From: an uncultured bacterium
GTDB lineage: Bacteria > Verrucomicrobiota > Lentisphaeria > Oligosphaerales > Oligosphaeraceae
Length of the DNA: 64,000 bases
Assembly (NCBI GenBank): GCA_902776645.1
Contig: CACYQT010000004.1
Coordinates: forward strand, 124,001 to 188,000
Direction: 5' to 3'
The notes beneath the pieces were generated by a model that saw only the letters and a list, made by a program, of their open reading frames with translations, was not told where the DNA came from and made no database searches. Made by a program: the position numbers and the translations under genes. Below, one piece after another: positions 36,580-58,551 of the stretch (position 1 is its first letter; every line of letters begins with the position of its first letter).

Positions 36580-36605
36580 CGACTGATCCAGCCAATCTAT
36601 CGCTA

Positions 36606-36648
36606 AATCGGCGGGCGCTTTCATTTCGAAAGCGCCCGCCGATTTTTT
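36606..36648 (+). terminator. Rho-independent terminator
   Basis: AATCGGCGGGCGCTTT and AAAGCGCCCGCCGATTTTTT form a stem of 13 GC-rich pairs plus A-T pairs around CATTTCG. Ends the symporter transcript. Confidence 0.94.
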
Positions 36649-36685
36649 GTATGCACCCGCCCACGAACTGACAGCAGGATATTTT

Positions 36686-36781
36686 CTAGTCTTCTAGTCT
36701 TCTAGCCTCCTAGCCTCCTAGCCTCCTAGCCTCCTAGCCTCCTAGCCTCCTAGCCTCCTAGCCTCCTAGCCTCCTAGCCTT
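36686..36781. repeat. Twelve-copy 8-bp tandem repeat (CTAGCCTC)
   Basis: Exactly twelve consecutive octamers: two CTAGTCTT, nine CTAGCCTC and one CTAGCCTT. It is at the left border of the AT-rich island that holds the DUF262/DUF1524 gene. The unit type recurs at 27439-27511 and 79-102. Copy number of such arrays usually changes by slippage. Confidence 0.95.
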
Positions 36782-36843
36782 CCATTGAATATAGCTTGTC
36801 AACAATGCGTTTTCAATGAATCCACATTGCTCATATGGCCATT

Positions 36844-36917
36844 ATCTTTACTTTTTAAGAAAAACTGATGACAAAATCTTTACTTTTTCATGCATGAATG
36901 ATATAATAAGTAAAGAT
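36844..36917. promoter_or_regulatory. Three ATCTTTACTT boxes flanking a TATAAT
   Basis: ATCTTTACTT occurs at 36844-36853 and 36876-36885, and its exact complement AAGTAAAGAT at 36908-36917. A TATAAT lies at 36902-36907. The arrangement looks like a promoter with operator boxes, of the type used by autoregulated toxin-antitoxin or defence genes. The gene just downstream is broken. Confidence 0.45.
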
Positions 36918-36934
36918 ACCAGTGAGGTTACCGC

Positions 36935-37139
36935 ATGATTTCCTACAGTCATCGTTTCGTTGACCGAAAAGGAGCTGACCGACAAATACTCCTTCGAGGA
37001 CGTCATGGCTTTACTGAGGCATGTCTTGGCAAACCGCACCGACGGCAAGTGGAGGCTGATGAAGATCTCAAGGCACATAGTGAAGCTCTGCAATGAGCTC
37101 GGGATCGAGCTGGAAGAGCCGGGCTTATGGTCTCCCTAA
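36935..37139 (+). pseudogene. Frameshifted remnant of a small gene
   Basis: An ATG at 36935 after GAGG opens a frame that gives only a short Arg-rich peptide. The +1 frame, open from 36942 to a TAA at 37137-37139, reads LTEKELTDKYSFEDVMALLR ... ELEEPGLWSP, which looks like a real C-terminal helical protein tail. The likely reading is a frameshifted or truncated gene. Family unknown. Confidence 0.45.
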
Positions 37140-37267
37140 AATGAATGATTCAGCTTTATTTAAGGGATTTGGAGATTCCTTAATTTAGAGCCTCATTGAA
37201 CCATTTTCTAATTTATTTTTTTATTGGACAGCAGTGTTATAAAAATAAATATTAACAGGAGTCATAT

Positions 37268-39364
37268 ATGGATGCAAATAAACTTTGGATGCTACGAGAT
37301 TTTATTGGTACAAACAAAGTTCTTTTTCGTATTCCTGTGTACCAGAGGAACTATGATTGGTCAGAATCCAACTGTAATCGTCTTTTAGATGATATTTATA
37401 CCATTATGGAATGTGGAGAAAAACACTTTCTTGGTACAATTGTATTTATGGCTGCAAAAAGTGGTGGTTTTACTTTACAGGAATATGTCATCATTGATGG
37501 ACAGCAAAGATTAACAACACTTATGCTAATTCTCAAAGCTTTGTCCATTGTTGCGAAGGAACATGAAGATGATTGTTATCATGAAATTGAAGAATCTTAT
37601 CTACATAACAAATATTGTGACGAAGAATACAAGGTAAAACTCAAACCAATAAAAACTGATAATAATCAATTTCTTCTCCTTCTGAAAGGGAAAATAGATG
37701 AAATGGATGAAGACACCCATATCTTTCAGAATTTTATTCTCTGTAAAGAACGTATTGAAAAATGGGTTGAAAAGGGGAAAAAAACTTCTGATATATTGGA
37801 TGCATTAACAAAATTGGAAATTGTAGAAATAATATTAACCAAAGGTGAAGATGATCCACAGGTTATCTTTGAAAGTATTAATTCTACTGGATTAGAACTT
37901 TCTAATGCTGATTTGATTCGCAATTATCTTCTAATGAATTCAGATGATCAAGAAAAACTATATGAAGATTACTGGCTACCAATTGAAAAAAAGCTACGAA
38001 ACAGAATGGATTATTCCAATTTGGAAGATTTTTTTACACAATATATTGTCTATAAAACTAGTAAACCTGTTAGTAATCGACAAATCTACAATCGTTTCGT
38101 TCAATTATTTAAAGATAATGGCTATTCTCATGAAAGTAGTTTGAAAGAATTACTATACTATGCCGGAATGTATAGTGCTTTTGTTAATAAAAATACAATA
38201 TATTCACAAAGGATAAAAGATATTCTTTATCGTTTACATATTCTTAATCAAACGACTTGTTATCCATTCTTATTTCATATATTTGATGACTTCAATAATC
38301 ATATTATTGATGAAAATATTTTAGAAAAAACATTACAATTTATTTTAGCATATCTCCTACGCAGAATGGTTTGCGGTGTTCCATCTAATTCCCTACGTGG
38401 TTTGTTTACATATCTTTACAATCGTATTTTTAAAGTTACAACAAACAAACAAAAATATTATGAATCACTAAATAAATTTTTGTTTACTATATCCTCCAAA
38501 GATGTTGTTCCAACTTCTTCTGATTTTCATCGTTTTCTCACAACAGCGAATATTTATAGTAATCCTGCCTTATGCCGTTTTCTTCTTCTAGATATCGAAA
38601 ACGGAGACGGAAATGAAAAACTTCAAGCTGAAAACCTAACCATTGAACATATTATGCCCCAAACATTAAATGCCGATTGGAATTATATCTCACCCGAAGA
38701 ACATGGAATGTATCTTCATACACTTGGAAATCTTTCTGTTACCGGTTATAATTCTGAATTATCCAATAAAAGTTTTAAGGAAAAACAAGAAATAATCCGT
38801 GATAATTCAAAGGCTATTGTTCTCAATAGTGATATTCTTGACAAGGATACTTGGCAAATAACTGACATTCAGGAACGTGGTACTCGATTAGCAAATATTA
38901 TTACAAATCGCTACCAAATTGATTGTATTAAAGATGATGCTATTGAATTTGAATATATTGAAACCATAACATTAAATGACTATGATTCTATCACAGGAAA
39001 GAAACTAGTTTCCTTTAGACTTTTTGATGTATCATATCGACAAAATAAATACGCATTAATGCTTTTAGATGTAGTTAAACTTCTTGATAAAAGAGTGCCA
39101 GAAAAACTAAAAAGACTTGCAGAGAATAACTTCTCCTTCAACACAACAAAGAAAAAATATACACATATAAATACCAATGGTGTTGGTATGCGATCACCAT
39201 GGAAGGTAACAGAAGGAGTCTATTTAGAAACTAATTTGTCAGCTTGGTCTTGTATTCGTTTTATCGATAGCCTATTAGCTGAATATGGTATTGATAAAAA
39301 ACAATTCATGATTAATGTTGTTGCAGAAGAATCAAGCGAGATTACAGAAGATGAAAACGAATAA
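37268..39364 (+). CDS. DUF262/DUF1524 protein, GmrSD-like nuclease
   Basis: A 698-residue protein of the GmrSD type IV restriction/anti-phage group. The N-terminal DUF262 (ParB-like NTP-binding) has RIPVYQRNYDW and IDGQQRLTTLML. The C-terminal DUF1524 (HNH/His-Me nuclease) has LTIEHIMPQTLNADWN and HTLGNLSVTGYN. A further domain (about 570-698, NTNGVGMRSPWKVTEGVYLE) follows, as in many family members. GmrSD cleaves modified phage DNA; the present protein fuses both functions in one chain. The gene is strikingly AT-rich against its neighbours, with many A/T-ending codons, indicating horizontal acquisition. AGGAG precedes the ATG. It stands alone, without a methylase. Confidence 0.9.
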   Translation: MDANKLWMLRDFIGTNKVLFRIPVYQRNYDWSESNCNRLLDDIYTIMECGEKHFLGTIVFMAAKSGGFTLQEYVIIDGQQRLTTLMLILKALSIVAKEHEDDCYHEIEESYLHNKYCDEEYKVKLKPIKTDNNQFLLLLKGKIDEMDEDTHIFQNFILCKERIEKWVEKGKKTSDILDALTKLEIVEIILTKGEDDPQVIFESINSTGLELSNADLIRNYLLMNSDDQEKLYEDYWLPIEKKLRNRMDYSNLEDFFTQYIVYKTSKPVSNRQIYNRFVQLFKDNGYSHESSLKELLYYAGMYSAFVNKNTIYSQRIKDILYRLHILNQTTCYPFLFHIFDDFNNHIIDENILEKTLQFILAYLLRRMVCGVPSNSLRGLFTYLYNRIFKVTTNKQKYYESLNKFLFTISSKDVVPTSSDFHRFLTTANIYSNPALCRFLLLDIENGDGNEKLQAENLTIEHIMPQTLNADWNYISPEEHGMYLHTLGNLSVTGYNSELSNKSFKEKQEIIRDNSKAIVLNSDILDKDTWQITDIQERGTRLANIITNRYQIDCIKDDAIEFEYIETITLNDYDSITGKKLVSFRLFDVSYRQNKYALMLLDVVKLLDKRVPEKLKRLAENNFSFNTTKKKYTHINTNGVGMRSPWKVTEGVYLETNLSAWSCIRFIDSLLAEYGIDKKQFMINVVAEESSEITEDENE

Positions 39365-39372
39365 TCCTTGAT

Positions 39373-39406
39373 GCAGTATTGACTTATTAGCAGTATTGAC
39401 TTATTA
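39373..39406. repeat. Two perfect 17-bp direct repeats
   Basis: GCAGTATTGACTTATTA occurs twice in tandem directly after the stop codon of the nuclease gene. Could be a duplication scar at the border of the acquired segment. Confidence 0.8.
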
Positions 39407-39411
39407 AACTA

Positions 39412-39567
39412 ATGAACACGCTTCCCCCCACAAAACGTGCCGAATACGAAGCTTTGCTCAAAGTTCCCGCTGGCGTCAGCGCCTCTTTGACCCAATTCAC
39501 CACCTCCCCCGAAACTCTCGAATGGCATCGCGCCAAGCTCGCGAAAGCCATCGCGGAGTTGCAATGA
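39412..39567 (+). CDS. Hypothetical 51-residue protein
   Basis: ATG 39412 to TGA 39565-39567, sequence MNTLPPTKRAEYEALLKV ... EWHRAKLAKAIAELQ. The GC-rich, Ala/Lys-rich helical end looks coding and differs in composition from the AT-rich gene before it. No clear ribosome site. May be the tail of a former longer gene or a small regulator. Function unknown. Confidence 0.4.
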   Translation: MNTLPPTKRAEYEALLKVPAGVSASLTQFTTSPETLEWHRAKLAKAIAELQ

Positions 39568-39609
39568 CACACTTCCCCAATCATATATCAGAGAAATTAC
39601 TACCCATTC

Positions 39610-39652
39610 AAACTGTCAAAGAATGATATAAAAATCAATTCTCTGACAGTTT
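39610..39652. repeat. Inverted repeat AACTGTCAAAGAATGA, copy 1
   Basis: AAACTGTCAAAGAATGA and TCAATTCTCTGACAGTTT form an imperfect hairpin. A second copy with a better stem lies 12 bp further on (39665-39707). Confidence 0.75.
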
Positions 39653-39664
39653 GAAATCAAAACT

Positions 39665-39707
39665 GAACTGTCAAAGAATGATGAAAAACTCAATTCTTTG
39701 ACAGTTC
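39665..39707. repeat. Inverted repeat AACTGTCAAAGAATGA, copy 2
   Basis: GAACTGTCAAAGAAT and ATTCTTTGACAGTTC pair over 15 bp. It follows the stop codon of the minus-strand frame 39718-39996 and could terminate it, but the duplicate at 39610 has no such position. Confidence 0.75.
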
Positions 39708-39717
39708 AATAGCTGTT

Positions 39718-39996
39718 TTATTTGAATAATTCCTCAACAGGAGTCGCGAAATCAAAGGAACCATCTGCCTGTACTTTTGGCGCCAAATGACCATCATAAA
39801 CTAGAACCGCCCCACAGACATACCGCGCGGCACGGAAAGCTGTTCCACTTTCTAAATCTGTGAAAACTTTTCTTTTCCAATCAAGCGCATTATAATATAA
39901 AATCAATGCCCAAGCACCGTATGACTTCCGACAAAGGGCTTGAAGACAGACTGAAGGAATACGAAACAACGCGTTTCGCTCAAAGGAATCAATCAT
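39718..39996 (-). CDS. Hypothetical protein, uncertain
   Basis: A 92-residue frame from ATG 39996 (MIDSFERNALFRIPSVC); it can be extended upstream into the next gene. The C-terminal half (GTAFRAARYVCGAVLVYDG ... FATPVEELF) looks protein-like. It would start back to back with the GDPD-like gene, sharing CATG. No family recognised; it may be a relic. Confidence 0.3.
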   Translation of the reverse strand: MIDSFERNALFRIPSVCLQALCRKSYGAWALILYYNALDWKRKVFTDLESGTAFRAARYVCGAVLVYDGHLAPKVQADGSFDFATPVEELFK

Positions 39997-40852
39997 GAAC
40001 GAATCCCAAACAATCTCTTCGGCAGACAAAGCTTTCAAATTCTATTTTGACAACCCGTTTGAACGCAAAATCATGAACATCGAATACTCCGTGCTCAGAA
40101 ACTACCATGGGCAGGGTGTTCTGCCGGGCAATACGGAAATGCATTTCCGCAAAGGTCTCGAAGAGGGTTTCGACGGTTTCAAGGCTGACATGCGGCTCAG
40201 CAGCGACGGCGTCATCATCCTTTGCCACGACGCAGGCTACACGTTCACACAAGACGGTAGAATCGCCACCTTCAACCAAGACAAATTCACGCCCATCCAT
40301 GACATGCCTTTCAACAAGATCCGCGAATTGGAATTCGAGCATCCCTTTGAAGGCCAATATCTTCATCCATGCACGCTCGACACCATGCTTGCCCTTTGTG
40401 AAAAGCACGATGTTGTCGCTTATCTAACTCTCCGCGCCGAACCATGGCGTACGGAAGTCGCCCAGAAGATGGTCGAGCTTATCCGCGCCCATAAGATGGA
40501 GCATCGAACCATCATCAACCTCTACACGGGCGTCAAAGAGGCGGTTGACTGCGTTTCGTCGCTCCTGCCCGGCCTAGTCTATTGCAATACAAAATATCCT
40601 GACGTCCAATTGACGACGGAACTCATCGACTCATCCGCCACCGACGGCTATAAAATCATCTGCCTCAATAACCACCAGCTTGAAACCGTCACGCTTGAAA
40701 AGCACCAATATGCCGCCTCGAAAGGCATCCGCATCTGGACATGGGGCGTCTCCAAGGCGGCGGAATGCGCCGCCCACATCGCACAGGGCATCACCGGCTT
40801 CCAAATGTGCTCCCGCGACGTGACCAACTCCGTGATTGCAGAAATGGTGTAA
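39995..40852 (+). CDS. Glycerophosphodiester phosphodiesterase-like protein with altered active site
   Basis: A 285-residue TIM-barrel protein of the GDPD superfamily. Start ATG 39995 follows AAAGGA; ATG 40073 (MNIEYSVLRNYHG) is possible. Expected motif HRG...PENT reads HGQGVLPGNT, so the catalytic Arg and Glu are replaced. Expected ExD reads KADMRLSSDGVIILCHD; the first acid is Lys although the Asp and the catalytic HD are kept. The late segment RIWTWGVSKAAECAAHIAQGITGF fits the family. It may have a different reaction or be inactive. The family normally hydrolyses glycerophosphodiesters. Confidence 0.8.
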   Translation: MNESQTISSADKAFKFYFDNPFERKIMNIEYSVLRNYHGQGVLPGNTEMHFRKGLEEGFDGFKADMRLSSDGVIILCHDAGYTFTQDGRIATFNQDKFTPIHDMPFNKIRELEFEHPFEGQYLHPCTLDTMLALCEKHDVVAYLTLRAEPWRTEVAQKMVELIRAHKMEHRTIINLYTGVKEAVDCVSSLLPGLVYCNTKYPDVQLTTELIDSSATDGYKIICLNNHQLETVTLEKHQYAASKGIRIWTWGVSKAAECAAHIAQGITGFQMCSRDVTNSVIAEMV

Positions 40853-46672: not shown

Positions 46673-49600
46673 TCAGAAACAGAGCAGCACGGCGATGCGT
46701 TCTTCGAACGGGACTTTCACGCCTTCCGAATACGCCCAGCCGGCCGGCTGCGAATAGATGGCCCTCGATATGAGGCTCGTCACCTTCCGTCCGTCGGCCA
46801 ACGTCAATTCGAGGTGGAAGTCCTTTACTTTGAAGAAGTCTTCGCCCGGATTGTCCAGCTCAAAACGATTTGTCTTTTTCAGCGTGGCGATGACTTCAGG
46901 CGGAATCTCGACGGACATGAAATCCGACCAGACATTGTCGCGTTCGTTGCCGCTTGCGGAAATCATCTGTCCCACCTTCTTCCCGTTGATCCATGCGTAG
47001 GATGTATACCCGCCATTGCTGTCCAAACCCTGTCCGCGATATTTCAGGACGGCTTTGACCGCGCCGCGCAAATCCGCTTCCGCCAGCCCTGCGACATAAT
47101 CCGGAAGAGCTTCGAAATCATATCGTTCCGACACACCATCCAGTTTCGTGATAATCCGCGGCTGCGGCCGTTCCAGATGAATGTCCGCCCAGCAGGCCCA
47201 GTCGCCCGCCGTATCACGCGCCTCGCCGATGTCGGAGATCAGTTTCAGCGTGACTTTCTTTCCCGCCCATGGCGTCAGATCCGCCTCGATCGGCTCCCAC
47301 ACATGCTTCGTGATCGGATGCTGCGCAAGCAGCATCTCATGGCCGTCATAGATGATCGCGACCTGGAAGCGGATGCCGTCGCCAAAATCCGAACCGTCTC
47401 TTTTTCCGACCATTGCGCGGAAGAAGACAGGCTCCTTCGGCAACGTGATGTCATGCGTCGTGAACGTGTTGCCGTGGACGCCGCCCCACCATGGCGGATG
47501 CATGAAAATGGACGGCTTCACAATGCCGTCGCATGCGCAGTCCGTCACCTCCGCCCGCGCGTGGACGACTCCGCCATCCGTCATTTCCGGATGGCCATCG
47601 ACGGTGAAACCGAACTGGAAGGTCTTGAAGAAATCATCCCGCAGGATGTCGGGCCCTTGCGAATAGAGCAGGCCGCCTTTCCATGACTGGCGGCATTTTC
47701 CGCTCGTCAGCTCCAATTGCAACGGCAGGACGCCGTCCGTCTGCGGCTCAGGCAGGGCGAAAGCGCAGACGGTCTTGCCGTCGCCGGGCAGCAAGACCGT
47801 CGTGGAGGCGCCGTTCAATGCGCAGTCAAGCTTCAACGGCTCGTTCGCGTTGTTGAAAATCGTGCATTCCAAGACGCGTTCGTCTTTCGACAACGCGACG
47901 GATATATGCGTCATCTCACGAATCATGAAGCAGATGGACTCGCCGCCGTGATGATACCACACGCATTCGCCGGGCTTGCCCGTTATGGTGACCGTGACGT
48001 CGCCATCCGGCGTGTGGACGATGACATCGCTGCCGGATACGACTTCGTACTGCTCGGACGTCAGTTTGCTCTCACGCGTGGGCACATGGCGGTCAATCTT
48101 GTAGCTCACGGCGTTCTCCACAGGCAAGACGTACAGAAGCCCGCGGCAGCGGACCGTCTTCGCGTCGCCAAGCTCCGTGCCGTCATGCGCGATCGCCTTG
48201 GCGCCGCCGCCTTCGACGGCGAAACCGCAGCAGGACGTCCCCCACGGGATGATCTCATAATGATCCGCGTCATCGACACGGCAGACGGCGGCACCCGCTC
48301 CGGACGCCTTCGGGAAACGCTGCGCGCCTCTGTCGCGGCCGTCGATGTAGATGTAGTCCGGAGTTTCCGCGTAATCGACGCGCTGCCCGCGACGCGCCCC
48401 GCTGAAGACATGGATCATGCCGTCATCCGTCCAGCCTTCGAAACCGTTGGGCGGCAGGATGATGTCACGTCCAAGATGCTTGACGCGCATTTCCTCCGTC
48501 TTGCTGCCGTTCACGACAACGTGCGTGCCGTTGTCGTAGTCCACCACCAGTTGCGACCGTTTGTAGCACTGGTTGACCAACGCCTCGGATGTCGGCCACA
48601 ACCGCCCGCGCGAATCCGCGTAGCGGATGCTCGCCACGGAGGCCTGCGTGTAGCGGGCCGCCAGCTGCTGGACAAGGAAGTAGCTCCGCATTGTCATCCG
48701 CATGCCGCCTTCGCCGACCAGGAAACCCGGATGGCCGAAAGCGACCGTCGCCGCCAGGAAGCGGTCGATGCACATCTCCAGTTCATCCGGCGTGCGGCCG
48801 AACGGCTTGCCTTCCTCATAGAACATGGCGGGGCTGCCGATGCCGAAATTGCACTCCTGGTCATGGATTTTGTTCAGATCGAAATCAACGAGCCACGGGC
48901 GGTCCGGCAGGCGGTAAGTGCGGTCCTGCGCGTAATTTCCGTCCGTCAAGCCGCTGTAGAAGCAGAAATGCGGCCCTTCGGAATAGACAGGCCCGTTCCA
49001 GGCCTTCTTCTGCATGAGCATGATTTCGCCGAAAGCGTAGAAGACCTGCGCGAAGGTTCCCGCACCGGGCACGCGATAGTCGTAATCACAACGGCTCCAC
49101 GGCGTGACGGATGTATGGACGTCGCAGTACGCCGTGCTGAAATGGAACTTGTTCTGAATGATCGGCGGCAGTTTTTCGGCGTATTCCACTGCGCGCAAAG
49201 GCTTTGGCGCATAGCAACGCCGCCAGGCGTGCATCAGCTGGTTTCTTGAATCGCGCGCCACCATGTCCGTGCTCCAGTATTCGTTCACAGGAGCGAAATC
49301 CGTGAAGTTGTTGTACGGACCGTAGACGAAGCCGAGCGTGTCCTGCATATAGCGCGCATAGTCGTACTGCCCTTCGTCGCCGCCCTTTCCGGGCGCGGGA
49401 CGCGTACGGAACGTAAAGCTCTCCTCACCGTCGCGCCAGCCCGTTTCGTGGTCGGTGATGATGCAGTGGCGCATGCCGTGCCGCCAGATGTTGTACCAGT
49501 ATTTCTTGTCTGATTCGCGGTTGCCCGCGCCATAGGCCCGCCACACGCCCGTGCCCGTCACATGCTTCCACGGCGACTTCGGGTTCGGGATGTTCGGCAG

Positions 49601-51013
49601 CGTCTCTTCGAAGACAGGCGAAATCGTGACGAAGAACCGTTCATAGACATCGTTCCGCTTGCCGTCCGTCTTCGGAATGTATTCCACGTAACCGTTGAAC
49701 TGGACAGTCTTGCGTGGATCTCCCGCGCCGCGCGGACGGCTGCCGTTGGACAGATACCAGTCCGTATGGCCGCTTAAAAACAACGGCGTGGCGCCGCTCT
49801 GCGCAAGCACGACGGCCGGGCGGCCGCTCGCGTAGTCATAGTACGGTATTTCGATCTTTTCGGTGAACGAAAGCCCTTTGACGCTGCCGTAGGATACGAC
49901 GCCCACGAGATTGCTTTCGTTCTTCGCCATCGTATCGACCACCAGCGTCTTGCCGCGCAGCGTGAACGTGTAGAGCACTTCGAAGCTGTCGTCGCCGTGG
50001 AACAGTTTCCACGCGGCGGAAAAGCCTTTCGGCGTCGTCTTTGAAAAATGGCCGCCGAGGAACTCCGCCTTGTCCGGCTTGAATCCTTCGCCGCTGCCGA
50101 AACGCGCCCCGCCGTCGGCCAATGGCTGGAATGACGGGCCGTCGTTCCACTGCGCCGTCAAATCGCCCCATGTGCCAGTCTGCGGCTCGTAGCGGATGGT
50201 CAGCTTGCCATCCTTTCCTTCATAGCGCATAATGGCCCCCTGCCCTTTTTTCGACATGGAATTGGAGGATCCGTCGGCCGCGCTGTCCGGCAGGATCGTG
50301 TCCTCCCGCGTCGGGAACGGCAGACGGCCTTCGCCCGTGTTGATGCCCGCATCCTGTCCGGGGAAGAGGTCGATGCCGCGTTTGGCCCGTGGCGCAAAAA
50401 ACAGCGGCGCAAAGTCTTCCTTGTACAGGCAGAGGCTGTCGAAATACAGCGTCCGTTCATCCGTCGTGCGGCAGTTGGCGATTTTGATTCCGCTGAAAAC
50501 CGTTCCGGGCTGATGGAGCAGCTTCTGCTGTTCATCCGTCAAACGGATGTGGCAGAGGAACCATTCATCCCATTTGACATGGACAAGATGAACCGCCTGC
50601 TCCTTGCCGTCCGGCGTCTTGAAGAGTATTTGAAGTTCCGCGCGCCCAGCGGTCTGGGCGTCATGGCGGAAGGCGAATTTATGGCCGTATGCCCACAGGC
50701 TGATGGCGTCGAAATCCGCCGGAACGGGAAGCGGCTGCGGAGGCCGCAAAATGAACGACGCCCCGCCCTTCGCGCCTTTGTAGCTGAATTTCAGCACGTA
50801 GTCGCCGAACATCTGCTGTTCGCGGGAGCGTTCCGCAATCGCCTCGCCGTTCGTCGCCTCCATTGTCCAGACATCGTTCCGCTCGAAATCCACCAACGGG
50901 CGATGGTCGTCCTCCGTCCGTCCCGCCCAGTCCATTTCATACGGCCGTTTGCCGACCGCCTGCCCATAGACCAATCCCATCAACAGAAGCAAACTCAACA
51001 GGGCTTTCTTCAT
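46673..51013 (-). CDS. 1446-residue exported protein, probable unclassified glycoside hydrolase
   Basis: Residues 1-17 are an export signal (MKKALLSLLLLMGLVYG). Residues 60-200 form a jelly-roll carbohydrate-binding-like domain. A beta-rich region (200-480) precedes a probable TIM barrel (480-860) that includes CIITDHETGWRDGEE, YCDVHTSVTPWSRCDYD (Asp631) and GPVYSEGPHF (Glu679). The Asp/Glu pair about 48 residues apart, on barrel-type strands, resembles the nucleophile and acid/base of GH101-like enzymes. C-terminal beta domains (900-1446) follow. It lies between an oxidoreductase and a phosphoesterase on the same strand, likely one operon. I cannot assign a GH family. Confidence 0.75.
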   Translation of the reverse strand: MKKALLSLLLLMGLVYGQAVGKRPYEMDWAGRTEDDHRPLVDFERNDVWTMEATNGEAIAERSREQQMFGDYVLKFSYKGAKGGASFILRPPQPLPVPADFDAISLWAYGHKFAFRHDAQTAGRAELQILFKTPDGKEQAVHLVHVKWDEWFLCHIRLTDEQQKLLHQPGTVFSGIKIANCRTTDERTLYFDSLCLYKEDFAPLFFAPRAKRGIDLFPGQDAGINTGEGRLPFPTREDTILPDSAADGSSNSMSKKGQGAIMRYEGKDGKLTIRYEPQTGTWGDLTAQWNDGPSFQPLADGGARFGSGEGFKPDKAEFLGGHFSKTTPKGFSAAWKLFHGDDSFEVLYTFTLRGKTLVVDTMAKNESNLVGVVSYGSVKGLSFTEKIEIPYYDYASGRPAVVLAQSGATPLFLSGHTDWYLSNGSRPRGAGDPRKTVQFNGYVEYIPKTDGKRNDVYERFFVTISPVFEETLPNIPNPKSPWKHVTGTGVWRAYGAGNRESDKKYWYNIWRHGMRHCIITDHETGWRDGEESFTFRTRPAPGKGGDEGQYDYARYMQDTLGFVYGPYNNFTDFAPVNEYWSTDMVARDSRNQLMHAWRRCYAPKPLRAVEYAEKLPPIIQNKFHFSTAYCDVHTSVTPWSRCDYDYRVPGAGTFAQVFYAFGEIMLMQKKAWNGPVYSEGPHFCFYSGLTDGNYAQDRTYRLPDRPWLVDFDLNKIHDQECNFGIGSPAMFYEEGKPFGRTPDELEMCIDRFLAATVAFGHPGFLVGEGGMRMTMRSYFLVQQLAARYTQASVASIRYADSRGRLWPTSEALVNQCYKRSQLVVDYDNGTHVVVNGSKTEEMRVKHLGRDIILPPNGFEGWTDDGMIHVFSGARRGQRVDYAETPDYIYIDGRDRGAQRFPKASGAGAAVCRVDDADHYEIIPWGTSCCGFAVEGGGAKAIAHDGTELGDAKTVRCRGLLYVLPVENAVSYKIDRHVPTRESKLTSEQYEVVSGSDVIVHTPDGDVTVTITGKPGECVWYHHGGESICFMIREMTHISVALSKDERVLECTIFNNANEPLKLDCALNGASTTVLLPGDGKTVCAFALPEPQTDGVLPLQLELTSGKCRQSWKGGLLYSQGPDILRDDFFKTFQFGFTVDGHPEMTDGGVVHARAEVTDCACDGIVKPSIFMHPPWWGGVHGNTFTTHDITLPKEPVFFRAMVGKRDGSDFGDGIRFQVAIIYDGHEMLLAQHPITKHVWEPIEADLTPWAGKKVTLKLISDIGEARDTAGDWACWADIHLERPQPRIITKLDGVSERYDFEALPDYVAGLAEADLRGAVKAVLKYRGQGLDSNGGYTSYAWINGKKVGQMISASGNERDNVWSDFMSVEIPPEVIATLKKTNRFELDNPGEDFFKVKDFHLELTLADGRKVTSLISRAIYSQPAGWAYSEGVKVPFEERIAVLLCF

Positions 51014-52172: not shown

Positions 52173-52399
52173 GTTGGCTTGCTCCTTTTTAAGAATTGTT
52201 TTATGACATGCACAATTGCTGATAATTTATCCAGTCTATCCGGAAAATCTAGGAAACATGTTTTTTTCAACACGATTGGACGCCAATGGGCAGGAATGTC
52301 ACGCCAAATGCCGTTTTCACATTGTGTGTTTTGCTTTATACCCTATATTATAATATTCGAACGACAAGAAGCGGATCACCCAAACCATCGGGAGCGACT

Positions 52400-53680
52400 A
52401 TGAATATCACGGCAAATCCGGAAGACTGGCGGGAAATCGTCTGCTGCGGGCTGGAAAACCAGCAGATCGACTTCAAATCACATCAGAACTGGGAGACGAT
52501 CGGACGCGTCGGACGCGCCAAATTCGCACGCCACGCCATGGCCCTCGGCAACACGCAGGGCGGCTATGTCGTCATCGGCGTCAGCGAAGACGAAAACGGC
52601 AATCCGACGGATTTTGTCGGCATGACGGAGGAGGAAGCGGCCTCCTTCGATCCAAGTACCGTCGGCCAAACCATCAACAACTTCGCGGATCCGCCTGTCT
52701 CGCTGGACATCGTCCGCCCCGTCGTCGACGGGAAACGTTATGTCGTGATGGTCGTATATCCATTTACGGACCTTCCCCACGTCTGTTCGGAAAACTGCGA
52801 ACGCGAACTGCAGCGCGGCGCCTTCTATGTCCGTACGCCGGACGCCCGCAGCAAAGTCGCCAACCAGTCGTCGGAGCTCCATCAGCTGGTCCGCCGCGCC
52901 CTGCGCAACCAACGGCAGATGCTCGGCCGCATGCTGCGCGGCATCCTCTACGAAGACAAGCAGCAGCCGGAAGCCCGCGAACTCGCCGTCATCCCGCCGC
53001 TGATCGACCGTTCACGCCAGCAGGCCACCACCAGGCTCGGCAAGAAGATCATCCATTCGCGCCCCTATTTCGAAGTCCTCTGCACGCCCGTGGCGCTGTT
53101 CGACGATCTCAGCCTCACGGACATCCGCAACACCATCGAATCGCTCGAACGGCCCACCATCGACGATTTCCTGTACAGGCAGCTCACGCTGAAATCGGAG
53201 CGCTTCGCCACGAACGACTCCATCATCGGTATCCAGACAAAGGACGGCACGCCTTGTGTCTTCTGGGAATTCTACCGCAACGGTTTCTTCTACATCGCGG
53301 CCGCATTGCCGCAAACCGACAAGGAAAAGCGCATCGTCCAATCCAGAATCCTCCGCCAGGCCACCGTCCTGACGCTTTCGCTCATCGGCCAGTGCTATTC
53401 CAATCTCAACAAGGCGGACAAGCTCCTCGACATCGCGCTCCGCATCCCGAACTCCGAAAACGCCATGCTCGCTTCATATAACAACAAGATAAATCCGGAC
53501 CATGTCTGCCGAATCATGGACATTGAAGTGAAACGGGAACGCACGGCCGCGGATCTGGAAGGCGGCGCAGCCCCCGAAACCGCCGCGCGGCTCTATGTCG
53601 AACTGTGCGAACGCTTCAACGTCACCTATGACGCGGCGGATGAAAAGAAAATCCAGAACAGCATGGCCCGCATCATCTAG
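52400..53680 (+). CDS. AlbA_2 (Schlafen-like) domain protein with unknown C-terminus
   Basis: A 426-residue protein from ATG 52400, fixed by GGAG five bases upstream; the frame is open further up but begins with unlikely sequence. The AlbA_2 domain is residues about 10-140 (QQIDFKSHQNWE ... FARHAMALGNTQGGYVVIGV ... RGAFYVRT). The remaining 280 residues (from NQRQMLGRMLRGILYEDKQ) are helical/beta and not recognised; there is no GHKL ATPase as in the gene at 14999. GC content is normal here. Possible nucleic-acid-binding regulator or defence factor. Confidence 0.8.
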   Translation: MNITANPEDWREIVCCGLENQQIDFKSHQNWETIGRVGRAKFARHAMALGNTQGGYVVIGVSEDENGNPTDFVGMTEEEAASFDPSTVGQTINNFADPPVSLDIVRPVVDGKRYVVMVVYPFTDLPHVCSENCERELQRGAFYVRTPDARSKVANQSSELHQLVRRALRNQRQMLGRMLRGILYEDKQQPEARELAVIPPLIDRSRQQATTRLGKKIIHSRPYFEVLCTPVALFDDLSLTDIRNTIESLERPTIDDFLYRQLTLKSERFATNDSIIGIQTKDGTPCVFWEFYRNGFFYIAAALPQTDKEKRIVQSRILRQATVLTLSLIGQCYSNLNKADKLLDIALRIPNSENAMLASYNNKINPDHVCRIMDIEVKRERTAADLEGGAAPETAARLYVELCERFNVTYDAADEKKIQNSMARII

Positions 53681-53769: not shown

Positions 53770-56097
53770 ATGATTATGAAAAACAACATAGCCGCCGTCA
53801 TCCTCGCCGCCGGAAAAGGCTCGCGGATGAATGACAATTCCACCAACAAAGTCTGCTTCGACTGTGCGGGAGTTCCCGTCATCCGCCGCATTCTGGGCGA
53901 AATGCGCGCGGGAGGCGTCTCGCTTTTCGTCATCGTCGTCGGCCACATGGCGCAGGATGTCATGGACTGCCTCGACGGCGAGCCGGGCGTCATCTACGCC
54001 TACCAGAAGGAGCAGAAAGGCACGGGCCATGCCGTCCTGTGCGGCATGAACGCTTTGAAATCAGCGGGTTACAATGGCCCGGTCATCGTCTCCATGGGAG
54101 ACAAGATCGTCGCGGCGCATGTCGTCAAAGGCCTGTTGGACAAGACATCCGCGGCGAAAGTCGTCTGGGGCGTCCAGCCGATCAACGACAATCCGAACGG
54201 CGGCCGCGTCGTCGTCGAAGACGGCCGCCCGTACGGCGTCGTGGAATTCGCGGACGCGGCCCTCATGTCCCTTGCGGACGTCCCGCCGGCGGATTATGAA
54301 AAGAAGCTGCTCTCGCTCGGCCTCAACGCCAAAAAGGCCGCCAAAGTGCTGAAAATCGCCAAGGAACACAAACCTGAAGGCAGCCGTCAGCTTGTCGATA
54401 AGACATTCTCCGCCAACGAGATCCTGAAGACGCCCTACGCCAACGCGGGTCTCTACTGCTTTGATCTGGACGCCGCCGTAGCCGCCATCAACGCCTGCGG
54501 TTCAGACAACGCGCAAGGCGAAATCTATTTGACCGATACGCTGGAAATCTTCGCGCGGCAGAAATGCGTCGCGCTCTACGAAGTGTCGAATCCGGACGAC
54601 ATGCTGACGTACAGCACGAAGCCGGAGCTTATCCAGCTGACCGTCCGTTTCATGCGAAACGCCTCCGACTGGCTGGCGGAAAAGAATCCGCAACTGACGC
54701 CTGTCCTGCGGCATTTCATCGCCAAATACGGCGACCAGAAGGTCGTCGTCGCCAGTTCGCCTGGACGCATCAATTTGATGGGACGGCACATAGACCATCA
54801 CGGCGGCGGCATCAACGTCATGGCCATCGACCGCCGCCTCACGATGGTCGTCTCTCCACGAACGGACCATCTCGTTCGTGTCACCAACATTAATTCGCAA
54901 TATCCCGACGACGAATTCGCCATCACGGAAATCAAGCATGAAAAATGGCTTGATTATCTGGATTCGGAGCCTGTCATGCAAGAGCTCGCCGCCTCCCGCG
55001 GCAAATGGACGAACTACATCAAGGCGGCCATCTGCCGATTCCAGTTCGAATCCTCCAACCTGCTCTGCGGCATGGACATAGCGGTCGGTGGAGACATACC
55101 GGCCGCCGCAGGTCTCTCCTCCTCGTCGGCTCTCGTCGTCGCGACGGCGGAGGCCATCGTCGCCTTGAACAGCATTCATGTCTCCAACCGCGAATTCATC
55201 GAATTATGCGGCGAAGGCGAATGGTTCGTCGGTTCCAGAGGTGGTTTCGGCGACCACGCCGCCATGAAATATGGCCGCCCGGGTAAGCTCGTACATCTTG
55301 GATTCCATCCGTTTGAAGTAGGCGAATCTGCTTCTCTTCCAGACGATTACGCCGTCATCATAGCAGATAGCAACGTGAAGGCGCGCAAATCTGAAGGCAG
55401 CAAAGACCGCTTCAACGCGCAAGTCGCCGCATACGATCTCTCGTTGATGCTGCTTAAACAGACCTATCCGGACGAACATCTCACGGATATGCGGAGCCTC
55501 GCCGCCGTCCGCCCGTATTCTAAACTGTACAAAATGCTTCTGTCACTGCCACTTGCAGCGTCGCGTAAGCAGCTTGAAGAAGCGCTGCCGGATGATTTGC
55601 ACAAATTGGCCCGCCTGTTCGCCTCCCATGCGGATCCAGGCGCCTACAACTTGCGCGGCGTCATCCTCTACGGGCTGTCCGAAATGGAACGTTCCGAACG
55701 TTTCATGGAAACGCTCAAGAACGGCGCCTATGATCTCATCGGCAAGATGATGCGAATCAGCCACAACGGCGACCGTATCGGCGATCCGACGATTTCGGAC
55801 GATTTCCTGAAAGAACAAGCCGCGAACGACGCGGATCTCGCCTTCCAGTGCGGCGCATACGCATGCTCCGTCCCGCAAATCGACGAACTGTGCGACCTTC
55901 TGGATTCCACGCCCGGCGTGCTCGGCTCCGAACTCGTCGGCGCGGGCCTCGGCGGCTGCATCGTCGCGTTGGTGAAAAAGGACCAGGCGGAAAACATCAT
56001 CAACGTCCTCAACGAGAAGTACTACGCGAAATACGGTGTCGGAACGGGCCATGCGAACGTCTATCAGCCGTCGCAAGGCTCATCCGTCGAATTCTGA
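53770..56097 (+). CDS. Fused sugar nucleotidyltransferase and GHMP (galactokinase-like) kinase
   Basis: A 775-residue fusion. Residues 1-270 are a GlmU-like nucleotidyltransferase: AAVILAAGKGSRM, NKVCFDCAGVPVI, GTGHAVLCGMNAL and NAGLYCFDLDA. Residues 325-775 are a galactokinase-type GHMP kinase: SSPGRINLMGRHIDHHGGG (motif 1), PAAAGLSSSSALVVATAEA (ATP-binding motif 2) and GSELVGAGLGGCIVALV (motif 3). Together they could phosphorylate a free sugar at C1 and convert it to a nucleotide sugar, as L-fucokinase/GDP-fucose pyrophosphorylase does in Bacteroides. It is 39 bp upstream of a GH127-like gene, so arabinose is one possible substrate. Start ATG 53770 or 53776. Confidence 0.88.
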   Translation: MIMKNNIAAVILAAGKGSRMNDNSTNKVCFDCAGVPVIRRILGEMRAGGVSLFVIVVGHMAQDVMDCLDGEPGVIYAYQKEQKGTGHAVLCGMNALKSAGYNGPVIVSMGDKIVAAHVVKGLLDKTSAAKVVWGVQPINDNPNGGRVVVEDGRPYGVVEFADAALMSLADVPPADYEKKLLSLGLNAKKAAKVLKIAKEHKPEGSRQLVDKTFSANEILKTPYANAGLYCFDLDAAVAAINACGSDNAQGEIYLTDTLEIFARQKCVALYEVSNPDDMLTYSTKPELIQLTVRFMRNASDWLAEKNPQLTPVLRHFIAKYGDQKVVVASSPGRINLMGRHIDHHGGGINVMAIDRRLTMVVSPRTDHLVRVTNINSQYPDDEFAITEIKHEKWLDYLDSEPVMQELAASRGKWTNYIKAAICRFQFESSNLLCGMDIAVGGDIPAAAGLSSSSALVVATAEAIVALNSIHVSNREFIELCGEGEWFVGSRGGFGDHAAMKYGRPGKLVHLGFHPFEVGESASLPDDYAVIIADSNVKARKSEGSKDRFNAQVAAYDLSLMLLKQTYPDEHLTDMRSLAAVRPYSKLYKMLLSLPLAASRKQLEEALPDDLHKLARLFASHADPGAYNLRGVILYGLSEMERSERFMETLKNGAYDLIGKMMRISHNGDRIGDPTISDDFLKEQAANDADLAFQCGAYACSVPQIDELCDLLDSTPGVLGSELVGAGLGGCIVALVKKDQAENIINVLNEKYYAKYGVGTGHANVYQPSQGSSVEF

Positions 56098-56136
56098 ACG
56101 TTTTCATCCATTCCATACCATAATTAGGAGCCCCAC

Positions 56137-58551
56137 ATGAAACATGGACTTTTCTCCGGCCTGCTGGCTGGCTCATTGCTGGCCGCAACTGTCGCAACCG
56201 CAGGTGACTATCCCTACCGCCCCGCCAACATGACAGATGTTTCCATCAAGGAGGGCTTCTGGCTGCCGCGCTTTGAGACGAACCGCAAGGTGACCGTCTG
56301 GGCGGATTTCCGCAAGAGCGAGGAGACAGGCCGCATCGCGAATTTCATGAACGCCGCAAAGCGTTTGAAGGGAAGCTTCAAGGGCATCCCGTTCGATGAT
56401 TCGGACGTCTTCAAGATCATCGAAGGCGCCGCCTACACGCTCGCGACGCATCCGGACGCCGAATTGGAAAAGTATCTAGACGAATTGATCGACATCATCG
56501 CCGCCGCGCAGGAGCCCGACGGCTATCTCTACACGGCCCGTACGACAGGTTTCGACTACGGTACGCAGAACGGCAAGACGAACTACGGCATGATGGGCCC
56601 CACCCGCTGGAGCAACTGCCCGTCCAGCCATGAGCTGTACAACGTCGGCCATATGTACGAGGCCGCCGTCGCCTACTATAACGTCACGGGAAAGCGCAAG
56701 CTGTTGGACGTCGCCATCCGTAGCGCGGATCTGGTCGAACGCACGTTCGGCCCTGGCCCGACGCAACTTAAGGCGGTTCCCGGCCATGAGGAAATCGAAC
56801 TCGCCCTCTGCAAACTCTATCGCACGACAGGCGACGCGCGCTATCTCAATCTGGCCCGTCATTTTCTGAAACAGCGCGGCGACGGAACAAAGGTCAACGC
56901 AGGCCAGCAGGCCCATATTCCCGTCGTCGAACAACGTGAAGCCGTCGGCCACGCCGTCCGCGCAACCTATTTATACTGCGGCATGGCGGACGTCGCGGCC
57001 TTGGCCGGCGACCAGGCGTTCATCGACGCCGTGGACGCCATTTGGGCGAACGTCGCGGAAAAGAAGCTCCATCTGACGGGCGGCGTCGGCGCGCGGCGCG
57101 GCGGCGAAGCCTTCGGCGACAACTACGAACTGCCCAACGAACGGGCCTATCTGGAGACCTGCGCGGCTATCGGCAACGCGTTGTGGAACCAGCGCATGTT
57201 CCTCATGCACGGCGACGCCAAATACATCGACGTTTTGGAACGCATCATCTACAATGGCTTCCTCTCCGGCATCTCCCTGACGGGCGACGAATTCTTCTAT
57301 CCCAACCCGCTGGCCTCCAAAGGCGGCTATGCCCGCTCCAAATGGTTCGGCTGCTCCTGCTGCCCCGTCAACGTCGTCCGCTTCATCCCGCAGATTGCGC
57401 AGTTCGCCTATGCGCTACGCGAAAACACGGCTTATGTCAATCTCTTCGTCGCCAGCGACGCCAAATTGAAGCTCGACAACGGCGAAATCAAATTGGCCCA
57501 GCAGACGGAATATCCGTGGAAAGGCCTCTCCATGATCACCGTCACGCCTGCGACGAACGGCCAGCAGTTCGATCTAGCCATCCGCATCCCCGGCTGGGCC
57601 ATCGGCAAGCCCGTCCCCAGCGATCTCTATACGCAAGTCGTTCCAGCCAAACTGGATGACGTGGCCGTTCTCGTCAACGGGCAGAAAGTCGCCTTCACGC
57701 CGGAAAAAGGCTACTGCCGCATCAGCCGCGCATGGCAAGCCGGAGACGCCGTCGAAATCCGCATGGCCATGCCTGTCCGCCGCATCAAGGCCAACGACAA
57801 CGTGAAAGACGACATCGGCCGCCTCGCCGTCGAACGCGGCCCCATCGTCTATTGCGCGGAAGGCGTCGACAACGACGGTGATGTGCTCAACAAGATCATC
57901 AAACCGGACGCCGTCTTCAAAGACGACACTGTTTCCGTTTTGGACTACACGTTCCCCGCGCTGACCACTGACGCCGTCACGCTGACGCGCAATTTCAAAG
58001 GCGACGTCACGTCGAAGACCCCCTGCACGCTCAAACTGATCCCCTACTTCGCGTGGTGCCATCGCGGCGCAGGCCAGATGCAGACATGGTTCCCCGCGGA
58101 GGAAAAAGGCGAATACGCCGTCAGCCCCATCAAGGCGACCGCCTCCCATTGCCATATTTATGACAGAGTCGAAGCCGTCTGCGACGGCGTCATCGCCAAA
58201 TCTTCCGGCGACGAAGGGCTCCCGCGTCTCACCTACTGGCCCCATAAAGGCACCACGGAATGGGTCGAACTCGCCATTTCCGCCGCTGAAAATTTCACCG
58301 GCATCGAAGTCTACTGGTTCGACGACGAACCGCGCGGCGGCTGCCGCATTCCCGCCTCATGGCGTGTCCTTTACAAAGGCGACAACGACACGGAATGGCA
58401 GCCCATCGACTGCGAGTATCCCATCGCGTTGGACAAATTCTGCACGGCGAAATTCCCCAAACCAGTCAAAGCCAAGATCTTCCACATTGAAATCAAGCTG
58501 AAGGAAGGCTTCTCCACCGGCATGACGGAAATCCGCCCAATCTGTGAATAA
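56137..58551 (+). CDS. GH127-like beta-L-arabinofuranosidase with C-terminal discoidin-like domain
   Basis: An 804-residue exported enzyme (signal MKHGLFSGLLAGSLLAATVA). The (alpha/alpha)6 barrel of DUF1680/GH127 has VFKIIEGAAYTLATHPD and NCPSSHELYNVGHMYEAA. Active-site residues match the known family: Glu324 in RRGGEAFG (acid/base), Glu340 and Cys342 in AYLETCAAIG, and Cys408-Cys409 in CSCCPVN (nucleophile Cys and zinc ligands). A C-terminal beta domain (about 680-800, EWVELAISAAENFTGIEVYWFDDEP) resembles a discoidin/CBM32-type module. AGGAG precedes the start by six bases. It removes terminal arabinofuranose from plant glycans, by family analogy. Confidence 0.9.
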   Translation: MKHGLFSGLLAGSLLAATVATAGDYPYRPANMTDVSIKEGFWLPRFETNRKVTVWADFRKSEETGRIANFMNAAKRLKGSFKGIPFDDSDVFKIIEGAAYTLATHPDAELEKYLDELIDIIAAAQEPDGYLYTARTTGFDYGTQNGKTNYGMMGPTRWSNCPSSHELYNVGHMYEAAVAYYNVTGKRKLLDVAIRSADLVERTFGPGPTQLKAVPGHEEIELALCKLYRTTGDARYLNLARHFLKQRGDGTKVNAGQQAHIPVVEQREAVGHAVRATYLYCGMADVAALAGDQAFIDAVDAIWANVAEKKLHLTGGVGARRGGEAFGDNYELPNERAYLETCAAIGNALWNQRMFLMHGDAKYIDVLERIIYNGFLSGISLTGDEFFYPNPLASKGGYARSKWFGCSCCPVNVVRFIPQIAQFAYALRENTAYVNLFVASDAKLKLDNGEIKLAQQTEYPWKGLSMITVTPATNGQQFDLAIRIPGWAIGKPVPSDLYTQVVPAKLDDVAVLVNGQKVAFTPEKGYCRISRAWQAGDAVEIRMAMPVRRIKANDNVKDDIGRLAVERGPIVYCAEGVDNDGDVLNKIIKPDAVFKDDTVSVLDYTFPALTTDAVTLTRNFKGDVTSKTPCTLKLIPYFAWCHRGAGQMQTWFPAEEKGEYAVSPIKATASHCHIYDRVEAVCDGVIAKSSGDEGLPRLTYWPHKGTTEWVELAISAAENFTGIEVYWFDDEPRGGCRIPASWRVLYKGDNDTEWQPIDCEYPIALDKFCTAKFPKPVKAKIFHIEIKLKEGFSTGMTEIRPICE

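Follow-up and report, generated by a model that had tools for sequence, protein, structure and literature searches.

Proteins that join a nucleotidyltransferase and a sugar kinase in one polypeptide have been described from a bacterium and from an animal. FKP of Bacteroides fragilis is an L-fucokinase/GDP-fucose pyrophosphorylase of 949 aa whose N-terminal part contains a beta-helix; it uses fucose and GTP (PMC11982464). The zebrafish protein is a glucuronokinase and putative UDP-GlcA pyrophosphorylase; the pyrophosphorylase activity went undetected in its authors' enzyme assays, and the bacterial and archaeal homologues of the transferase consist of that domain alone (PMC3938481). In the literature on nucleotidyltransferase–kinase fusions, of which the sources were available in part, we found these two proteins and no bacterial fusion of the GlmU/galactokinase type. 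Our literature searches returned nothing on AbGHMP, on glucuronate kinases of bacteria that serve UDP-GlcA salvage or on the contact made by galactokinase Glu43.

Here, we describe a fusion encoded in a 64,000-nucleotide stretch of DNA from an uncultured bacterium, the whole of which is called the window below. With FKP it shares the order of pyrophosphorylase, linker and GHMP kinase, a catalytic pair of Arg and Asp and the logic of taking a free sugar to a nucleotide sugar, but its transferase half is of the GlmU type and its kinase belongs to the galactokinase/GALK2 branch (compared with PMC11982464). Like the zebrafish enzyme, it consists of an N-terminal bacterial-type nucleotidyltransferase and a C-terminal GHMP sugar-1-kinase and would follow a logic of UDP-uronate salvage; the fused kinase belongs to the galactokinase type, that of zebrafish to the plant glucuronokinase type (PMC3938481). 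A phmmer search against the PDB returned no FKP chain at E<=0.001, and none was among the 50 structure matches listed, which leaves a shared fold possible. The fusion would add a third architecture to these two, one in which the kinase comes from a different branch and its partner is of the GlmU type.

The fusion gene, its two halves and its occurrence

The features of the window discussed here are the following:
53770-56097, + strand: fusion gene, 775 aa, intact; an open reading frame with exactly the limits given in the first-pass annotation
53770..54669, + strand: nucleotidyltransferase half, aa 1-300, with the GlmU-type uridylyltransferase fold (Pfam/NCBIfam, structure alignment)
54670..56097, + strand: GHMP sugar-1-kinase half, aa 301-775 and stop codon, with the galactokinase fold (Pfam, structure alignment)
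54784..54786, + strand: codon of Arg339, at the galactokinase Glu43 site (residue alignment)
56137..58551, + strand: GH127 glycosidase, 804 aa, intact (Pfam; secretion signal read by eye)

The first-pass annotation had proposed a GlmU-like nucleotidyltransferase and a galactokinase-type kinase in one protein, and the open reading frame, the Pfam domains and the fold alignments agree on this. Pfam recognises NTP_transf_3 (E 9.2e-12) in the transferase half and GHMP_kinases_N (E 1.8e-15), GHMP_kinases_C (9.2e-14) and GalKase_gal_bdg (3.2e-15) in the kinase half. The best NCBIfam models are GlmU and galactokinase, respectively, all far under their cut-offs: the kinase half scores 160.9 bits against the galactokinase model TIGR00131 (equivalog cut-off 226.65) and the transferase half 104 bits against GlmU (cut-off 366.85), with the best stretch ending at about residue 164. 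In an AlphaFold model of the fusion (mean pLDDT 89.9, built on a 29-row alignment), residues 306-775 are predicted to superpose on galactokinases with a Z of about 41 and an rmsd of 2.0-2.1 Å (for human GALK1, over about 372-376 residues), and residues 6-326 on GlmU with a Z of 29.1 over 236 residues at 1.8 Å (VIA-align). The modelled kinase half also matches human GalNAc kinase GALK2 (2a2c; Z 39.3, 423 residues, 2.5 Å), its closest solved relative, which has the same fold but no transferase half, carries Glu instead of Arg at the C6 position and is about 23-29% identical. The transferase half has the uridylyltransferase fold, the motifs and the catalytic residues of GlmU; unlike in GlmU, the left-handed beta-helix acetyltransferase part is missing and the kinase half stands in its place. 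A two-step chemistry, in which a sugar kinase acts before nucleotidyl transfer, is likely for this protein, and the passage from free sugar to nucleotide sugar in one protein, also put forward at first pass, would in principle be possible for such a fusion.

Because this fusion turns up again in other genomes of the order, it is no artefact of assembly. Fusion-grade matches to the kinase half were found in 28 of the 47 genomes of the order and in 49 of the 197 genomes of the class, and a phylum-wide draw of 387 genomes contained kinase-half matches in 36, two of which are kinases without transferase. The 29 fusion genomes of the order counted below include G045, in which the fusion is broken by contig ends and lies under the E limit. 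The window's genome is a Victivallales-type MAG, with two near-identical relatives (92 and 90% identity) among the Victivallales of water-buffalo forestomach. A contig scan with patterns from a single query yielded two loci, both from the same genus as the window, and a tblastn search of plasmids yielded nothing.

Two other regions of the window attracted attention. A secreted-looking protein of 1,446 aa (46673-51013, − strand) is conserved in two congeners and matches neither Pfam nor NCBIfam models at E<=1. The block at 36001-40000 has a G+C content of 0.38, compared with 0.51-0.60 in the other 4-kb blocks, contains an open reading frame of 698 aa (37268-39364) and is possibly a recent acquisition.

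Kinase phylogeny and the sugar pocket

A maximum-likelihood tree with 57 rows (one of them, L091, badly trimmed and on a long branch, although its motif reads correctly in the residue alignments) places the fusions and two standalone kinases on one side of a branch with 100/100 support, and galactokinases and galacturonokinase homologues elsewhere. The rows nearest to the clade are human GALK2 and yeast Gal1, both on long branches, and deeper placement is weakened by long branches and partial PDB segments. Grouping of the kinase half with galactokinase, which the first-pass annotation had named as part of a refuting outcome, was not seen: the fused kinase has a clade of its own (100/100), apart from the galactokinases and galacturonokinases of the tree. 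Among PDB sequences, the kinase half matches human GalNAc kinase best (phmmer, 110 bits), and the same protein heads the Foldseek ranking. The standalone clade members (L098 7964-10613 and L099 2052-3773) have Met or Thr in place of Arg339.

Because of this separate clade, and because the window genome encodes a separate galactokinase on another contig, we regard the fused kinase as neither a galactokinase nor a plant-type galacturonokinase. An ordinary galactokinase was ruled out by the TIGR00131 score below cut-off, the separate clade and the Arg at the Glu43 site. That the protein joins a galactokinase to a UDP-galactose pyrophosphorylase, as the galactokinase fold and the galactokinase model at the top of the NCBIfam matches might suggest, is highly improbable given a score of 161 bits where the cut-off demands 227, the clade of its own and the separate galactokinase elsewhere in the genome. 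A true galacturonokinase was rejected on account of the separate clade and of 23% identity between the window kinase and plant galacturonokinase (Arabidopsis At3g10700); the two share the His-x-Asp-His motif and the loss of Glu43, but the plant enzyme has Ala where the fusion has Arg. The basic pocket described below also led us to consider a phosphorylated sugar, as for a heptokinase, but the resulting 1,6- or 1,7-bisphosphate would be unsuited to the fused transferase without a phosphatase.

Residues were surveyed in 41 fusion proteins, with pocket positions numbered by alignment to human galactokinase; fusions from outside the window's genus share only 34-56% identity with the window protein (29 aligned rows). 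In the transferase half, G15, R19, K27, Q79 and G84 are invariant in all 41 and D111, E159 and N225 are present in 37. The kinase half is invariant at R333, R339, H340, H343, S451, D495, H496 and K540, and thereby retains the equivalents of galactokinase Arg37 and Asp186 (Arg333 and Asp495) throughout. In the window's subclade (8 of the 41 fusions), Ser282 occupies the position of a GlmU Asn that we take to be a Mg ligand. Fusions of the genus g66 (L081, L084, L085 and L094) have lost Asp111, Glu159, Asn225 and Thr85 of the transferase while every kinase motif is intact, a natural experiment in which one half is decaying.

In galactokinase, Glu43 faces the C6 hydroxyl of galactose. All 41 fusions have Arg (Arg339) at this site, presumably likewise on the C6 side of the sugar. 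GALK1, GALK2 and Gal1 have Glu, five galacturonokinase-like kinases Ala, and five galactokinases of the order Asn, so that Glu43 is not a strict galactokinase marker. The Tyr47 site is His in every fusion and also in the galacturonokinase homologues, the Gln187 site is His in every fusion, and the Tyr236 site is Phe (39) or Tyr (2). Position 181 is Arg (36) or His (5), which together with the invariant K540 makes this side of the pocket basic. L079 and L080, fusions that belong to a different family within the phylum, have Glu at the equivalent of galactokinase Asp46. The conservation of Arg339 across proteins of 34-56% identity suggests a ligand contact, for which a C6 carboxylate would be the simplest partner, and judged from its residues the pocket looks suited to an acidic sugar and not to arabinose.

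Neighbouring genes and the identity of the sugar

On the same strand and 39 nt downstream of the fusion lies the GH127 gene, whose product has the catalytic (E 1.7e-112), middle (7.8e-21) and C-terminal (7.3e-24) Pfam domains as well as ETCA (aa 340) and CCP (aa 408), which we take to be the zinc/nucleophile motifs. Its nearest solved chain is 6ex6 (681 bits), presumably the beta-arabinofuranosidase BT3674, followed by 4qjy (458 bits); chains named non-reducing end beta-L-arabinofuranosidase score 347 bits and 5mqo, presumably the aceric-acid hydrolase BT1003, 320 bits. Aceric acid hydrolase is the best NCBIfam name for the window protein and should be avoided, since 468 bits stand against a cut-off of 950. 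The first-pass annotation had placed a GH127 arabinofuranosidase beside the fusion, in keeping with 6ex6 as the nearest solved structure, and the release of arabinose by the window's enzyme itself is plausible. The further proposal that the two genes are operon partners fits the window's genus, with its common strand and 39-nt gap, and fails as a general rule: GH127 adjoins the fusion in three of 43 loci, the window and two congeners, all of a single genus and in wider synteny. On the other side of the fusion, 90 nt upstream, lies a gene with a Schlafen/AlbA_2 domain (52286-53680, + strand) that is retained in the congeners.

The substrate that the annotation had drawn from this pairing, L-arabinose, is without support for the family as a whole: the pairing is restricted to one genus and the fusion is present in 49 of the 197 class genomes, Arg339 is fixed, and the neighbours elsewhere belong to UDP-glucuronate and surface-polysaccharide metabolism. 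We therefore gave up family-wide arabinose as a lead. L-arabinose isomerase was found in only four of the 47 genomes of the order, and neither in that of the window nor in any of its four congeners, a rarity that leaves room for another arabinose route. In a salvage of the kind proposed at first pass, GH127 would free L-arabinose for conversion by the fusion to L-Ara-1-P and UDP-L-arabinopyranose, and loss of Glu43 may be tolerable for L-arabinopyranose, which is galactose minus C6. We consider such salvage improbable, as a fixed Arg would be odd for a substrate without C6, the GH127 adjacency is far narrower than the fusion, and the kinase half appears to lack the motif of plant arabinokinase.

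The 43 loci comprise the window, two named relatives and 40 further stretches, with neighbours taken as the longest non-overlapping open reading frames. In three loci of one genus (L073-L075), an SDR protein comes next after the fusion; its L074 copy scores 393 bits against human UXS1 (UDP-glucuronate decarboxylase). Then follows a second kinase with 39-40% identity (39% in L074) to Arabidopsis galacturonokinase over about 393 aa, compared with 28% to galactokinases. These second kinases are likely galacturonokinases by sequence. Further homologues were found in G027 (C295), G019 (C78) and G009 (C80), in addition to the L074 copy at 12179-13357; four of the five compared are 39-40% identical to the reference and that of G009 35%. 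They carry the motif PYR-CP-GAH-DHQ, occur in six of the 47 genomes of the order and adjoin UDP-xylose synthase (UXS) in four genomes of one genus. In L062 the gene order is UDP-glucose 6-dehydrogenase (340 bits to TuaD), WbpP-like 4-epimerase, fusion and RmlA-like gene; in L063 this epimerase recurs (334 bits to WbpP), together with RmlA, among glycosyltransferases, and L061 is a polysaccharide locus with an RmlB-like gene and two sugar-transfer ATP-grasp proteins. UDP-glucose dehydrogenase lies on the same contig within 14 kb of the fusion in three (G023, G005 and G040) of the 15 fusion genomes having it, which is weak evidence because polysaccharide loci often carry this gene. A lone transferase-half homologue stands beside a NahK-like APH kinase (173 bits) in a polysaccharide locus of G028 (L102 6856-8889), where the kinase–transferase pairing recurs with an unrelated kinase, and another (L101) beside a WbpP/WbgU-like epimerase; one standalone kinase relative (L098) overlaps a NagA-like gene. 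Most remaining fusion loci have no informative neighbour.

Uronic acids, which were already among the possible sugars of the first-pass annotation, are our best single guess for the substrate, a tentative choice that is somewhat more apt to fail than to hold. The C-terminal half would phosphorylate the anomeric hydroxyl of the free sugar with ATP, with Arg333 and Asp495 acting as Arg37 and Asp186 do in galactokinase and Arg339 binding the C6 carboxylate, and the N-terminal half would convert the sugar-1-phosphate and UTP to UDP-sugar and pyrophosphate; both in vitro activities, UTP as the nucleotide and the identity of the sugar are what we infer. The likeliest sugar would be a hexuronic acid, with D-galacturonic acid preferred, since the His-x-Asp motif of galacto-sugar kinases is retained, and D-glucuronic acid as the alternative. 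The UDP-uronate may then be used directly, C4-epimerised or decarboxylated to UDP-xylose, for surface polysaccharide. Although tentative, this conversion of uronic acid, ATP and UTP to a UDP-uronate for surface polysaccharide is the best reading at hand of the retained fold and catalytic residues of both halves and the basic pocket with its fixed Arg339, of the Tyr47 to His change common to fusions and galacturonokinase homologues, and of neighbours that include UXS, a galacturonokinase homologue, UDP-glucose dehydrogenase and a 4-epimerase.

UDP-xylose synthase requires UDP-glucuronate. In favour of the uronate reading, 14 of the 29 fusion genomes of the order show no UDP-glucose dehydrogenase (Ugd), and yet 12 of these have UXS, scored as present at hits of at least 58% identity. 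The dehydrogenase is missing in 14 of 29 fusion genomes compared with four of 18 others (one-sided Fisher 0.068), in 12 of 25 compared with three of 13 among UXS-positive genomes (p 0.126) and in six of 13 compared with one of five at a completeness of at least 90 (p 0.32), a weak association that is suggestive only. Against the uronate reading, UXS occurs in three genomes (G006, G018 and G024) that lack both the fusion and Ugd, GalNAc kinase and yeast Gal1 come closer to the fused kinase in sequence and in the Foldseek ranking than the galacturonokinases do, the separate galacturonokinase homologue in L073-L075 implies that the fused kinase may serve another sugar, and the window's subclade (8 of 41) has Ser at the GlmU Asn site taken to bind Mg.

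The main rival to the uronate is an N-acetylhexosamine, to which the NahK-like context of L102 and the NagA-like context of L098 point. The kinase would yield GalNAc-1-P or GlcNAc-1-P, the GlmU-like half UDP-HexNAc, and a WbpP-like epimerase would interconvert the products; GalNAc kinase as the best PDB (110 bits) and Foldseek match, the GlmU type of the transferase, and the WbpP/WbgU-like epimerases that adjoin the fusion (L062, L063) or the standalone transferase (L101) are all consistent with this. We nevertheless hold it to be unlikely, because GALK2 keeps the Glu43 that is Arg in 41 of 41 fusions, the L062 dehydrogenase beside the epimerase scores best as a UDP-glucose and not a UDP-HexNAc dehydrogenase, and the UXS and galacturonokinase homologue among the neighbours would be left unexplained. 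GlmU over the curated cut-off was found in none of the 47 genomes of the order; its absence as an argument for HexNAc is undercut by UDPGP-family (PF01704) proteins, present in 42 of the 47 genomes and in none of 14 control genomes, owing to which the fusion need not supply UDP-GlcNAc. UDP-GlcNAc in the order may come from this eukaryote-like enzyme. The kinase might also be the real function, with a weak or vestigial transferase half and the sugar-1-phosphate passing to another enzyme, as the four g66 fusions without Asp111, Glu159 and Asn225 and the Ser of the window's subclade could indicate. This is quite unlikely in view of the transferase residues retained in 37 of 41 fusions and of the transferase half found alone in two genomes (L101 and L102), which indicates that it is under selection by itself.

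Possible meaning for glycan-degrading bacteria

Taken as a whole, the proposal is possible but doubtful: a single protein that takes free uronic acid to UDP-uronate, evolved independently of both FKP and the glucuronokinase fusion of animals, would feed pectin- or glycan-derived uronates of Victivallales-type bacteria into surface polysaccharide and, in some lineages, replace UDP-glucose dehydrogenase. Whatever the sugar, a widespread clade of GHMP kinases in which a pocket residue has changed and become fixed makes a clear target. Should the uronate reading be true, the enzyme would allow one-pot production of costly UDP-GalA or UDP-GlcA, bacteria would own a uronate counterpart of FKP, and glycan degraders would reuse acidic sugars, beyond burning them.
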